From Rhodospirillaceae bacterium UBA6608 (GTDB lineage: Bacteria; Pseudomonadota; Alphaproteobacteria; Rhodospirillales_A; Casp-alpha2), in assembly GCA_002433335.1 (NCBI GenBank), contig DJHY01000073.1, forward strand, positions 1 through 8,489: DNA of 8,489 nucleotides, in the 5' to 3' direction. Position numbers and translations under genes: made by a program. The notes below the pieces were generated by a model. That model did no database searches. It was not told where the DNA came from and saw nothing but the letters and a program-made list of their open reading frames with translations. The first letter of the stretch is position 1; each line of letters opens with the position of its first letter. Positions 2,959-5,732 of the stretch are shown piece after piece.

Positions 2959-3723
2959 TTACGTCGGGGGGGATGACGAACCTGCGTCTTGCAGGGAGAT
3001 CAGATAGTCCATGGTCGCGGTGCGCAGGGATTGAAAACCCGCGACCGTTTCGTCTTCGCTGAGAAGTCCGTCGCCGTCCTGATCGAACGACTGGAACAGG
3101 GTTGCGATCGGATCGCTGGGCTCGGTCGACGAGGTTTCATCGCTGTCGTCCGAAGTTCCGAACAGGGCGTCCATCAGAATGGACAGGGGATCGTCCTCGT
3201 CGTCCTCACTGATGCCGGCCATACCGCCGCCGCCCGGCGGAGGACCCGGAGGCGGACCGTCCGGACCCTTGGCGGCCAAGCCGCTGGTGAATTCGTCTTC
3301 GGTCAATAGACCGTCACCATCGGTGTCCAATTGGGCGAACAGCTCTTCCTGATTGTCGGGGGCGTCTTCGGGGGCGCCGGCCGCGAATTCTTCAAGCGTG
3401 AGTGCGCCGTCACCGTCTTGATCGACGGATTGGAACATCTCGGCCAAGTGCTGCAGCATATCGCCGGCGAGGCCGCTCGGCGGCGGTGGCGGGCGATGAT
3501 TGCCGGATGAGAATTCCTCTTCGGACAGAGAGCCGTCACCGTTGGTGTCCATCGACGAGAACAGCTCTTCGAGATTCCCAGGCGCGTCGTCCGGAGCACC
3601 GGCGACGAATTCGTCCAGGGTAAGCTGTCCGTCCCCGTCGGTGTCGGTCTTGGCGTATCTGTCCTTGAGAGCCTGCATAAGGCCGGTTTGAGCACCGGCG
3701 TAGCTATCGATTGCAGAAACCAT
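2959..3723 (-). CDS. five-EF-hand calcium-binding protein
   Basis: Predicted Ca2+-binding protein of 254 residues with five canonical 12-residue EF-hand loops (D-x-D/N-x-D-G-x-L-x-x-x-E). They are at D27-E38, D59-E70, D101-E112, D133-E144 and D214-E225. Each has a D, N or D at ligand positions 1, 3 and 5 and a terminal E at 12, so all five look competent. Loops 1-2 and 3-4 are spaced 32 residues apart and are copies of one another at an offset of 74. Pairs are joined by proline/glycine linkers (77-82 and 155-167), and a very acidic stretch (172-195) precedes the lone fifth hand. The N-terminus (MVSAIDSYAGAQTG) shows no signal peptide or TM segment, so it is cytoplasmic or exported by a non-Sec route. 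The RBS is AGGAAG about nine bases upstream. It is the last gene of the ECF sigma cluster but has its own 139-base leader with a sigma-operon-like promoter block. Its function (buffer, sensor or effector) is unknown. Confidence 0.9.
   Translation of the reverse strand: MVSAIDSYAGAQTGLMQALKDRYAKTDTDGDGQLTLDEFVAGAPDDAPGNLEELFSSMDTNGDGSLSEEEFSSGNHRPPPPPSGLAGDMLQHLAEMFQSVDQDGDGALTLEEFAAGAPEDAPDNQEELFAQLDTDGDGLLTEDEFTSGLAAKGPDGPPPGPPPGGGGMAGISEDDEDDPLSILMDALFGTSDDSDETSSTEPSDPIATLFQSFDQDGDGLLSEDETVAGFQSLRTATMDYLISLQDAGSSSPPT
3280..3651 (-). repeat. internal duplication of an EF-hand pair (protein level)
   Basis: Residues 25-74 and 99-148 of the EF-hand protein align without gaps, with 33 of 50 identical by my count. 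The match covers both loops and the connecting 'AGAPxDAPxNxEELF' segment. The fifth EF-hand (residues 214-225) is not part of the duplicated unit. This points to an ancestral two-hand module that was duplicated in tandem. Confidence 0.8.
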
Positions 3724-3819: not shown

Positions 3820-3846
3820 AACGGCTGGGGGCGGGGTTCCTGTCGC
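3820..3846 (-). promoter_or_regulatory. putative ECF sigma-dependent promoter of the EF-hand gene
   Basis: On the minus strand, GCGACAGGAAC (complement of 3836-3846), then 12 bases, then CGTT (complement of 3820-3823). The same 11 bases, the same 12-base spacer length and the same CGTT lie upstream of the ECF sigma gene at 5423-5449. GGAAC and CGTT are typical -35 and -10 elements of ECF promoters. The distance from GCGACA to CGTT is 17 bases, while GGAAC to CGTT is only 12, so which block serves as the -35 is uncertain. The implied start of transcription leaves a leader of roughly 90 bases. The site begins 17 bases past the stop of the sensor gene. Confidence 0.6.
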
Positions 3847-3862
3847 GGGAAGTTGGATTTTT

Positions 3863-4360
3863 TTAAAGCCGGGGCGGGGGCGGACCTCCGGGAGGCCCCC
3901 CAGGCGGACCAGGCGGCAGGGCGCGGCGGAAGAAATCGATGCGCTGCTGACGGTCGGGGATCGCCAAGGCGATGTCCCGCATCATGTTTCCCAGGGCGGC
4001 GCTGATCCGCGTATGGCGTTGGGCCATGCGGGCGAATATTTCGTCCAGATGCGCGGCGTCGATCTGCGCCGCGGTCAGGGCATTTTCAACCTCTCTGAAC
4101 GAGCCCATACCGTCGCGCATGTTGGCGTCGATTTCCGGTTCACGTTGATCGATGATCGCCCGCACCTTGTCGCGCACCGCCGGGGGAAGCCGATCAGCCG
4201 CATCGTACATATGGCGCCCCGGCGACGGCGGCGGCGGGTGGTGAAAGAACGGTCCGGACAGAATGACCCCCGCCGCGAACCCGTTGGCGATCAGCGACAG
4301 GACGAACCCGATCTGGATCAGGCGGTTCAATTTGGTCGAATTCGCGAACGGCTTAGTCAT
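3863..4360 (-). CDS. CnrX/ZraP-like periplasmic metal-sensor family protein
   Basis: Membrane-anchored protein of 165 residues resembling the 'periplasmic heavy metal sensor' (Metal_resist) family. The cytoplasmic N-terminus is short. One TM segment follows at about 14-36 (LIQIGFVLSLIANGFAAGVI), then a long alpha-helical periplasmic domain (53-147). Just after the membrane are H40, H41 and H50 around a proline run. H104, H116, M126, M127 and the acidic E74/E76 lie in the helices; by analogy with CnrX these could bind a metal, but the match of ligands is my inference. The end is an unusual PG-rich tail (149-163). The ATG lies inside the end of the anti-sigma gene (8-base overlap, ATGACTAA), so translation is coupled. 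In CnrYXH-type systems the sensor controls the anti-sigma protein. The real signal here could be a metal, misfolded protein or another envelope stress. Confidence 0.72.
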   Translation of the reverse strand: MTKPFANSTKLNRLIQIGFVLSLIANGFAAGVILSGPFFHHPPPPSPGRHMYDAADRLPPAVRDKVRAIIDQREPEIDANMRDGMGSFREVENALTAAQIDAAHLDEIFARMAQRHTRISAALGNMMRDIALAIPDRQQRIDFFRRALPPGPPGGPPGGPPPPRL

Positions 4361-4784
4361 GACGGTGGTTTCCCGCAGGATTCAGGGCGTAGCTGGGCCC
4401 CAGGGAAAGCAAATTGTATTCCGAATGCTGATGAACGGCCCGGGTCATTTTCGCACCCGAAGTAAAGCCCAGCCCGAGGACCAGCGCCAACACCGACAAC
4501 AACAGGGCGGGGCGGCGCAGGAACAGGATCAACACCGGCGCGGCCGCCGGCGGCATGGCGGCCGAAATCTCGGCGATCCGCTGCATCGTCCGCGCCCGCA
4601 GCCCGTCGGATGGTGTTGGCCAGGAAACGGTATTCAGCCCGTTGTCGATCCGGCAAGCCTCCGAATATTCCGGCAGGGCGCGGACGGCGGCTTGCTGGTC
4701 GTCGGACAGATGTTCCGGCCAGCGCCGGAAATCTCCTCCGTAAAGGGCCAGCTGTTCTTTCCAGCGCCTTTCATTCGGTTCCAT
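4353..4784 (-). CDS. short single-TM anti-sigma-factor-like protein
   Basis: A 143-residue protein encoded between an ECF sigma factor and a periplasmic sensor, the place of CnrY-type anti-sigma factors. The N-terminus (1-75) is soluble and charged and holds 'LALYGGDFRRWPEHLSD' (12-28). This is the YGxDxxRWP motif common in alphaproteobacterial ECF-associated anti-sigma-like proteins. One TM helix follows at about 93-109 (ALLLSVLALVLGLGFTS). The C-terminal ~33 residues would be periplasmic and contain H118, H120, H140 and H142, close to the exit of the sensor's histidines. No zinc-binding anti-sigma (ZAS) HxxxCxxC motif is present. The start overlaps the sigma stop by 14 bases, and an AAAGGG lies about seven bases upstream. 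The role is inferred from context and topology rather than from a strong family match. Confidence 0.68.
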   Translation of the reverse strand: MEPNERRWKEQLALYGGDFRRWPEHLSDDQQAAVRALPEYSEACRIDNGLNTVSWPTPSDGLRARTMQRIAEISAAMPPAAAPVLILFLRRPALLLSVLALVLGLGFTSGAKMTRAVHQHSEYNLLSLGPSYALNPAGNHRHD

Positions 4785-5370
4785 CGAAATACCCTTTCAG
4801 TTCGTCGTCTTCTGTCAGTCTTTCGCGAAGGGTTCTCCGCGCGCGGGCGAGCAGGGAGTCGAATGCCGGGCCTTTCAGGCCCACGACCTTTGCTGCTTCG
4901 GTGTTCTGAAGTTCCATGAAATAGACCAGCATGATGGCTTCCCGTTGCCGGTCGGGCAGGGCGAACAGCGCATCGCGAACCGACGCCTGTTTGCGTTTCC
5001 GGTCAATCGACTGTTCCGAATGGAGGAACGCGGTCGGGGCGGTTTCGACAACGGACTGAAGGTGCATGTTCTTATGCTTTTCCAAGTCGTTGTTACGTTT
5101 ACGAATCTGGTCCAGACACAGGTTTCGGGCAACCGTCAGAAGCCAAGTCTTGATGGTTGCTTCGGGCCGCCAAGTCGGTGCGTTCTGCCACAGCCGCACG
5201 AATGTCTCTTGGGTCACGTCCTCGGCGATCTGGTGATCGGTGACCAGGGAATAGGACAGCTTGAACACGTCGCCGACGCGGCGGTCGAACAGCGCCTGGA
5301 ACGCCGGTTGGTCCCGCTCCGCGATCCGTCCAACCAGGGCATTATCGTCTAGGTCGTCCGGAAAGGTCAT
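4771..5370 (-). CDS. RNA polymerase ECF-type sigma-70 factor
   Basis: A 199-residue group 4 sigma factor with only regions 2 and 4. Region 2 covers about 24-92, with the core-binding and -10-reading segment 'TDHQIAEDVTQETFVRLW' (44-61) and 'TWLLTVARNLCLDQIRKR' (75-92). A variable linker follows (93-128). Region 4 (about 131-184) begins 'RDALFALPDRQREAIML' and ends in the recognition helix 'FDSLLARARRTLRERL'. There is no additional C-terminal domain. The ATG is at the expected place before 'DDNALVGRIAERDQPAFQALFDR', but I see no clear Shine-Dalgarno within 15 bases, suggesting weak or regulated translation. It is first in an operon with overlapping anti-sigma and sensor genes. The promoter block at 5423-5449, repeated before the EF-hand gene, suggests that it activates its own transcription. 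Confidence 0.93.
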   Translation of the reverse strand: MTFPDDLDDNALVGRIAERDQPAFQALFDRRVGDVFKLSYSLVTDHQIAEDVTQETFVRLWQNAPTWRPEATIKTWLLTVARNLCLDQIRKRNNDLEKHKNMHLQSVVETAPTAFLHSEQSIDRKRKQASVRDALFALPDRQREAIMLVYFMELQNTEAAKVVGLKGPAFDSLLARARRTLRERLTEDDELKGYFDGTE

Positions 5371-5422
5371 CGGGCGGCGCGGGGTCCGTTTCGGTCAGAA
5401 CAAGGCGTCAATCGATCAATAT

Positions 5423-5449
5423 AACGTTCGAGCAGCGCGTTCCTGTCGC
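5423..5449 (-). promoter_or_regulatory. putative autoregulated promoter of the ECF sigma operon
   Basis: On the minus strand, GCGACAGGAAC (complement of 5439-5449), 12 bases, CGTT (complement of 5423-5426). This block lies about 50 bases before the sigma start codon, inside a 122-base non-coding stretch. It matches the block upstream of the EF-hand gene (3820-3846) in sequence and spacing, while the spacer bases themselves differ. That is what is expected of a promoter recognised by one sigma factor. ECF operons are commonly autoregulated. No start of transcription is known. Confidence 0.6.
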
Positions 5450-5492: not shown

Positions 5493-5732
5493 TCAGGCCG
5501 CCGCCGCCGAGATGTCTTCGGTGGCAATCCGCTCGTTGCGGTCTTCGTCCCGGTCCTTGGCCTTGCCCCACAGGTATTCGTGGATGGAGTAGGCGACCGT
5601 TTGAACCATCGGTTCGATGATCCCGACGCCCAAGGCGATGTGCCAGTCGCGGGTCAGCGCGAAGGCGACCGCCACGGCCACCGTCAGGTGCATCATGGAG
5701 TAGGTCCCCGTTTTGATCAGTTTGCGCGACAT
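5493..5732 (-). CDS. DUF2061 family small membrane protein
   Basis: A 79-residue protein matching the small DUF2061 membrane family. It begins 'RKLIKTGTYSMMHLTVAV', with a first hydrophobic segment at about 14-27 and a second at about 31-48 ('HIALGVGIIEPMVQTVAY'). The family-style 'IHEYLWGKAK' at 50-59 is related to the usual HERxW. The charged tail ends in a run of alanines. Its function is unknown. A strong AAAGGAG (complement of 5739-5745) fixes the ATG. It is transcribed as a single gene: a terminator precedes it and a sigma70-like promoter with an overlapping palindrome lies upstream. The sigma operon follows after 122 bases, and there is no clear intrinsic terminator between them. Confidence 0.85.
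   Translation of the reverse strand: MSRKLIKTGTYSMMHLTVAVAVAFALTRDWHIALGVGIIEPMVQTVAYSIHEYLWGKAKDRDEDRNERIATEDISAAAA

Follow-up and report, generated by a model that had tools for sequence, protein, structure and literature searches.

Introduction

The EF-hand gene cabp of Caulobacter vibrioides adjoins the gene for the ECF sigma factor SigV. According to those parts of a 2026 report that were available, cabp lies upstream of sigV, encodes a product with a Sec signal, has a promoter separate from that of sigV and is activated by SigV (PMC13171946). The cabp start was mapped there by 5′ RACE and assigned a −35 box GGAAA, a 13-nt spacer and a −10 box CGTTCA; in the presence of EGTA, the cabp promoter was low in a sigV deletion and rose to ~3-fold the wild-type peak upon sigV overexpression (PMC13171946). 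The same sections describe SigT dependence as well, give the sigV promoter other boxes, located inside cabp, and leave the membrane link of this calcium circuit open (PMC13171946). A second comparable layout is the nickel/cobalt system CnrYXH–CnrCBAT of Cupriavidus metallidurans. As described in the available portion of the source, this system combines an ECF sigma factor, CnrH, with a membrane-bound anti-sigma complex, CnrYX, and uses two promoters of the one sigma factor, cnrYp for the regulatory genes and cnrCp for the output genes, which specify metal efflux (PMC9045368).

We analyzed an 8,489-nt stretch of DNA from Rhodospirillaceae bacterium UBA6608 (contig DJHY01000073.1; hereafter the window), in which an ECF sigma gene and an EF-hand gene also lie together under what appear to be separate promoters, with activation of the EF-hand gene by the sigma factor as a prediction. 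The window differs from the cabp–sigV locus, as far as the latter is described in the parts available (PMC13171946), in that its EF-hand gene lies downstream of the sigma gene and of two further genes, for a candidate anti-sigma factor and a Metal_resist protein, that its EF-hand protein has no signal peptide visible by eye and that its operon holds candidates for the membrane link. Of the publications found in a literature search for this module, only the Caulobacter report was judged relevant on the parts seen. The main text of the S. meliloti ECF sigma paper has no EF-hand, DUF1800 or DUF1501 (PMC6180224), PMC8103513 has neither EF-hand nor DUF1800, and in PMC10880074 neither CGAC nor CGTT was found, nor was either of the two genus names looked for.

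Materials and methods

The protein search brought together the window sigma factor and 21 relatives of 41–60% identity, down to 157 bits, with lower scores continuing from 130 bits. The alignment of these 22 sigma factors was used for a profile scan of genome contigs, which gave 78 loci. Forty-four loci are labelled Mesorhizobium, and the rest are labelled Rhizobium, Agrobacterium, Novosphingobium, Sphingomonas, Caulobacteraceae, Alsobacter, one Myxococcales and, for locus L001, Gammaproteobacteria; because of the 44 Mesorhizobium loci, counts out of 78 overstate independence. The sigma tree had 104 rows and left out L070, whose match was too short, and L075–L078; the motif label was assigned manually to the window and to L001, whose spacing is one base longer. 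Output genes were recognized by short motifs, with the families checked on L002 and L005. The 30 Caulobacteraceae loci examined came from matches in 79 genomes and were fetched by the motif, so that motif presence in them is by construction; some of the matches look like coding sequence.

Results

The sigma gene (4771–5370, minus strand) encodes a 199-aa protein that has regions 2 and 4 only and exceeds the cut-offs of PF04542 (65.2 versus 24 bits), PF08281 (34.3 versus 25.7) and TIGR02937 (91.3 versus 42.9), as expected of an ECF (sigma-70 group 4) factor. Its best NCBIfam match is NF004113 (PRK05602), a sigma family that includes the Mesorhizobium sigma factor and has a cut-off of 208, but the window sigma factor lies outside this family at 170.5 bits; L001 scores 142.0 and L005 scores 283.2. 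In the sigma tree, where long branches are flagged, the window sigma factor pairs at 100/99 with that of L001 (43% identity over residues 7–193) and with no other. No close relative at clade-level score was found in the 385 genomes of a class draw (best match, 169.6 bits), and a search of four orders (43, 135, 5 and 82 genomes; cut-offs 1e-44 to 1e-50) recovered only the genome of L001 (241.7 bits) and one other, G928 (157.8 bits). Plasmid records gave 754 matches, all below 60% identity, 40% being the best among the matches listed. Upstream of the sigma operon, a DUF2061 small membrane protein gene lies on the same strand (5493–5732).

A second gene (4353–4784, minus strand) overlaps the end of the sigma gene; its 143-aa product contains a YG....RWP motif and a single long hydrophobic helix. 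The protein matched no Pfam family, and its structural model, which is helical and of low confidence (pLDDT 71, pTM 0.34), matched no PDB fold at E ≤ 0.001. The RWP protein is present in 9/9 loci aligned, with the YG....RWP motif invariant, and UniRef gives at least one of the 120 homologs listed the name 'Transmembrane anti-sigma fact...'. We regard the 143-aa protein as a likely candidate for a membrane anti-sigma factor. The third gene (3863–4360, minus strand) encodes a Metal_resist protein (PF13801, 57.6 bits versus a cut-off of 29.2) with an N-terminal hydrophobic segment, likely a periplasmic sensor. PF13801 recurs at the same place in L001, L002, L005 and L062, which share with the window the order of sigma, RWP membrane protein and PF13801 protein, and PF13801-like proteins were seen in 7/7 loci aligned.

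The EF-hand gene (2959–3723, minus strand) encodes a 254-aa protein with five EF-hand stretches (PF00036, 102.1 bits). Inspection of its N-terminus, MVSAIDSYAGAQTGLMQALKDRYAK, by eye revealed no hydrophobic stretch or signal peptide and no earlier in-frame ATG, GTG or TTG; the EF-hand proteins of Mesorhizobium differ from it with respect to the signal peptide. With NCBIfam NF041410 (XopAW family), the protein reaches 117.8 bits, just under the cut-off of 120, which probably reflects shared EF-hand repeats.

The minus strand contains two exact copies of the block GCGACAGGAAC-N12-CGTT, one at 5423–5449, ahead of the sigma gene, and one at 3820–3846, ahead of the EF-hand gene. A preliminary description of the window had reported both, the former ~50 bases before the sigma start, and had seen the block nowhere else; the distance to the sigma ATG (5370) is 52 nt, and the whole 8,489-nt window holds no other site with up to two mismatches. 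Dinucleotide shuffles (n = 200) gave a mean of 0.04 block matches, and none had two copies. The EF-hand copy begins 16 nt past the stop of the Metal_resist gene, and 96 nt separate its end from the EF-hand ATG (3723). Eleven consecutive bases, AAC included, are common to both copies, and AAC is not kept by relatives. The 12-base spacers are unlike, as had also been described (CCCGCCCCCAGC in the EF-hand copy and GCGCTGCTCGAA in the sigma copy), and so are the flanks. Read as promoters, the sigma copy would consist of a −35 box GCGACAGG (5442–5449), 15 nt and CGTT (5423–5426; reading CGTTATA), and the EF-hand copy would consist of GCGACAGG (3839–3846), 15 nt and CGTT (3820–3823; reading CGTTTAA).

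A matrix from 13 genus-level representatives, scanned over the window, ranked the EF-hand copy third (5.5 versus a mean shuffle maximum of 5.4) and did not place the sigma copy in the top six. The two blocks do not stand out with this consensus matrix, a result that we count against the promoter reading. From the stop of the Metal_resist gene to the start of the EF-hand gene, the terminator scan listed nothing on the minus strand, and read-through from the sigma operon into the EF-hand gene is thus possible. On the plus strand, a terminator-like stem at 3837–3851 (TTCCTGTCGCGGGAA then GTTGGATTTT) overlaps the EF-hand copy; given four terminator-like sites in the region versus 3.6 expected, it may be there by chance.

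The boxes and their spacing recur upstream of related sigma genes. We looked for CGAC-N18-CGTT, which has the letters and the spacing of the window, in the 1200 nt ahead of each sigma match; 68/78 loci carry it in the sense orientation and 2/78 in the antisense orientation, and first-order Markov sequences gave 1–4 of 78. Other CGAC–CGTT spacings from 10 to 23 occur in 0–5 loci each, except for N22 with 23 loci, 22 of which are CGACCGAC overlaps. GGAAC-N12-CGTT, by contrast, occurs in none of the 78 loci over the same 1200 nt. The two counts together identify the −35 box as (G)CGACRG(R), located 15–16 nt before CGTT. Block conservation in related clusters, which had been proposed as a check, thus did not refute the promoter reading, with L001 as the one locus that stands for close orthologs.

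In most loci other than L001, the leader of the sigma gene, or that of an EF-hand gene directly before it, reads CGACGGA-N15-CGTTNAA, and the CGTTNAA ending is found in 67/78 loci. This ending is present in the EF-hand copy of the window and absent from the sigma copy and from L001, which carries GCGACAGG-N16-CGTTTAG ahead of its sigma gene. The −35 box of the window has A for G and G for A relative to the consensus of its relatives (GCGACAGG versus GCGACGGA), a variant shared only with L001 among the loci compared. CGAC-N18-CGTT is missing from ten loci, namely L001 (where the spacing is longer by one base), L060, L061, L070 (CGCCGGAAC variant), L072, L073, L075, L076 (truncated by the end of the contig), L077 and L078; CGCCGG variants occur in L092 and L070.

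The second place is conserved as well. A second copy follows the sigma, membrane-protein and Metal_resist genes in 62/78 loci, and 61/78 have both copies. The spacing of the second copy is N18 in 26 loci and N19 in 37, with both in L076, and the copy starts at +1377 to +1556 from the start of the sigma match, or at +1172 in L076, where the match begins late (residue 131). The window has the same double arrangement, CGAC-N18/19-CGTT before the sigma operon and behind the Metal_resist gene, with −35 letters that differ from the consensus. The stretch of L001 that was read contains a single promoter copy and lacks an EF-hand gene.

What lies behind the second copy varies. The first recognized gene in the 62 loci encodes a GCG_CRPN small protein in 40 and a DUF1800 protein in 22, and DUF1800 is found within 1.5 kb of the second copy in 53; in the window, this output slot is occupied by the EF-hand gene. 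An EF-hand motif is located within 900 nt upstream of the sigma gene in 50/78 loci; most Mesorhizobium loci, Novosphingobium and the Myxococcales locus have their EF-hand gene before the sigma gene, under the first copy. In Rhizobium and others, DUF1800 and DUF1501 genes are found behind the second copy (L002 6492–9280 and equivalents).

Separate draws indicate how far the motif extends. In the class draw (385 genomes around a Caulobacteraceae genome), the 30 best sigma matches had the motif upstream in 15 cases, an EF-hand gene upstream in 18 and both in 10; 8 of the 15 loci without the motif have an EF-hand gene upstream. Together with the 10/78 loci that lack the exact spacing, these 15 suggest that specificity has changed within the wider family. 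GCGACGGA-N15-CGTTCAA occurs in 79/299 Caulobacteraceae genomes and the reversed pattern in 2. Among the 30 Caulobacteraceae motif loci, 10 have the sigma gene, 9 of them with an EF-hand gene between motif and sigma. L156, L159 and L160, from three Caulobacteraceae genomes, share an AT-flanked, near-identical motif, GCGACGGAAAGAGGGTCTAATRGCGTTCAAGCAACAG, and no such sigma gene was recognized in the stretches fetched.

A scan of 12 genomes with CGACRGR-N15/16-CGTTNAA, a pattern that misses the site of L001 owing to its CGTTTAG ending, gave 30 matches versus 9 for the reversed control, and 17 of the 30 are at the sigma loci. The genomes of M. ciceri, A. vitis and Alsobacter have two matches each, both of them the local copies at the sigma locus. 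The 13 matches outside the loci are close to the control number of 9, and the regulon therefore looks local at this stringency.

Discussion

The two blocks of the window are, on the comparison of related loci, most likely two local promoters of one ECF sigma factor, which very probably turns on both itself and its EF-hand neighbor. The view of the preliminary description, that the sigma factor transcribes its own operon and separately the EF-hand gene, is thereby supported, with promoters at the same two places in related loci and an EF-hand gene as a recurrent partner; recognition of the blocks by the window sigma factor itself is judged from sequence. RNA polymerase with this sigma factor would read (G)CGACRG(R) as the −35 box and CGTT, or CGTTNAA in the relatives, as the −10 box, 15–16 nt apart. 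The first copy would drive the sigma factor, the candidate membrane anti-sigma factor and the Metal_resist protein, resulting in autoregulation, and the second copy, just behind the Metal_resist gene, would drive the output gene, here that of the five-EF-hand protein. A presumed envelope signal would free the sigma factor from the anti-sigma factor, and both units would rise together.

CnrX, which we take to be a member of PF13801, is a counterpart of the Metal_resist protein of the window (57.6 bits). Given two promoters of one sigma factor and a PF13801 partner, the layout would work like CnrYXH with cnrYp and cnrCp, as these are described in the available part of the source (PMC9045368). 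The systems differ in output, a metal efflux system in the case of Cnr (PMC9045368, same portion) and an EF-hand protein in the window. Moreover, no metal efflux genes were found among the window genes run against Pfam, CnrH is a distant match to the window sigma factor (42.6 bits, below SigW at 58) and the window membrane protein lacks any Pfam family; for these reasons, membership in the CnrYXH system is not claimed. The ECF modules of Mesorhizobium, Rhizobium, Agrobacterium, Novosphingobium, Sphingomonas and others have the same three-gene core in the loci inspected and the same promoter at both places, but their outputs are GCG_CRPN or DUF1800/DUF1501 proteins, their −35 box is GCGACGGA rather than GCGACAGG and the spacing of their second copy is often one base longer. 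The logic of the window is ordinary, in a new variant.

Could the blocks belong to another sigma factor, such as the alphaproteobacterial general stress sigma factor EcfG, which would then feed the operon? CGTT is also the core of the EcfG −10 box, and EcfG promoters have the form GGAAC-N16/17-CGTT. The activity of the Caulobacter sigV promoter rose upon sigT overexpression, and both promoters are called SigT-dependent in the parts of the report available (PMC13171946). However, GGAAC lies 12 nt from CGTT in the blocks, which departs from that form, and the near-control number of motif matches outside the sigma loci (13 versus 9 in 12 genomes) is unlike a general stress regulon. We consider this origin improbable.

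A further alternative keeps the sigma factor and changes the register, with GGAAC as the −35 box of a non-standard ECF promoter, only 12 nt from CGTT, as the preliminary description had preferred. GGAAC is the textbook core of an ECF −35 box and is present in both window copies. The Caulobacter authors likewise selected GGAAA with a 13-nt spacer, according to the sections available (PMC13171946). Against this register, GGAAC-N12-CGTT is absent from all 78 loci, whereas CGAC-N18-CGTT is present in 68; GGAAA-N13-CGTT, the Caulobacter register, occurs in 1/78 and GGAA-N14-CGTT in 13/78, low counts that arise because most relatives read CGACGGAT. L001 reads GCGACAGGGTG in its −35 region, without GGAAC. 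With AAC not conserved, the GGAAC register is very unlikely, and the unusual geometry deduced from it falls away. GCGACA-N17-CGTT, named in the same description as the other possibility, is on the counts in related leaders the right register, the conserved box being CGACRG(R), and its spacing is ordinary.

An operator, bound by an activator or repressor, could likewise consist of two boxes at a constant distance, and the blocks would then not be promoters. This is slightly less probable still than the GGAAC register, since the orientation is fixed towards the gene, the spacing is promoter-like, 67/78 relatives carry the CGTTNAA extension and the Caulobacter start was mapped behind boxes of the same spacing, according to the available text (PMC13171946). 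Chance, or a recent leader duplication without function, can practically be dismissed: the 11 shared consecutive bases, including the AAC that relatives do not keep, could reflect local copying that placed the second copy, but spacers and flanks differ, none of 200 shuffles had two copies and both places are occupied in 61/78 loci. Conservation speaks against pure chance, and an origin by duplication is compatible with function.

The published Caulobacter boxes can be read anew. The published 5′ primer for cabp ends GCGCGACGGA, with GCGACGGA as its final part (PMC13171946, available portion). If the last GGA of the primer is the start of GGAAA, the cabp promoter would read CGAC-N18-CGTTCA, which is the geometry of the window and, in our own reading, fits the published boxes and primer (PMC13171946, same portion). 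Among 390 Caulobacteraceae genomes, the primer sequence had one match, with one mismatch, in an unrelated coding gene.

We tentatively propose, at somewhat less than even confidence, that the window belongs to a widespread ECF system with a nearly private promoter, in which a fixed core of sigma factor, RWP anti-sigma factor and Metal_resist sensor is followed by a second promoter copy and an output gene that can be exchanged. With an EF-hand gene as part of it in several lineages, the system would couple periplasmic cation status in a general way to a calcium-binding effector, and the published Caulobacter −35 box would lie ~4 bases too far downstream. The RWP membrane protein and the Metal_resist protein would be candidates for the membrane link left open in the available parts of the Caulobacter calcium circuit paper (PMC13171946). 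The comparison of related loci, which corrected a register chosen by eye, defines a promoter that is short and can be tested; the ECF family to which it is assigned is widespread among the sampled genomes and little studied in the literature searched. Because the motif is local and nearly private, the regulon may be read from sequence. In 26/78 loci, a further motif copy, CGACGG...CGTTTCACGGAGGTAGGGATG, is located near the far end on the opposite strand; the three inspected, on the minus strand at L009 10380, L006 10395 and L010 10376, are all from Mesorhizobium.
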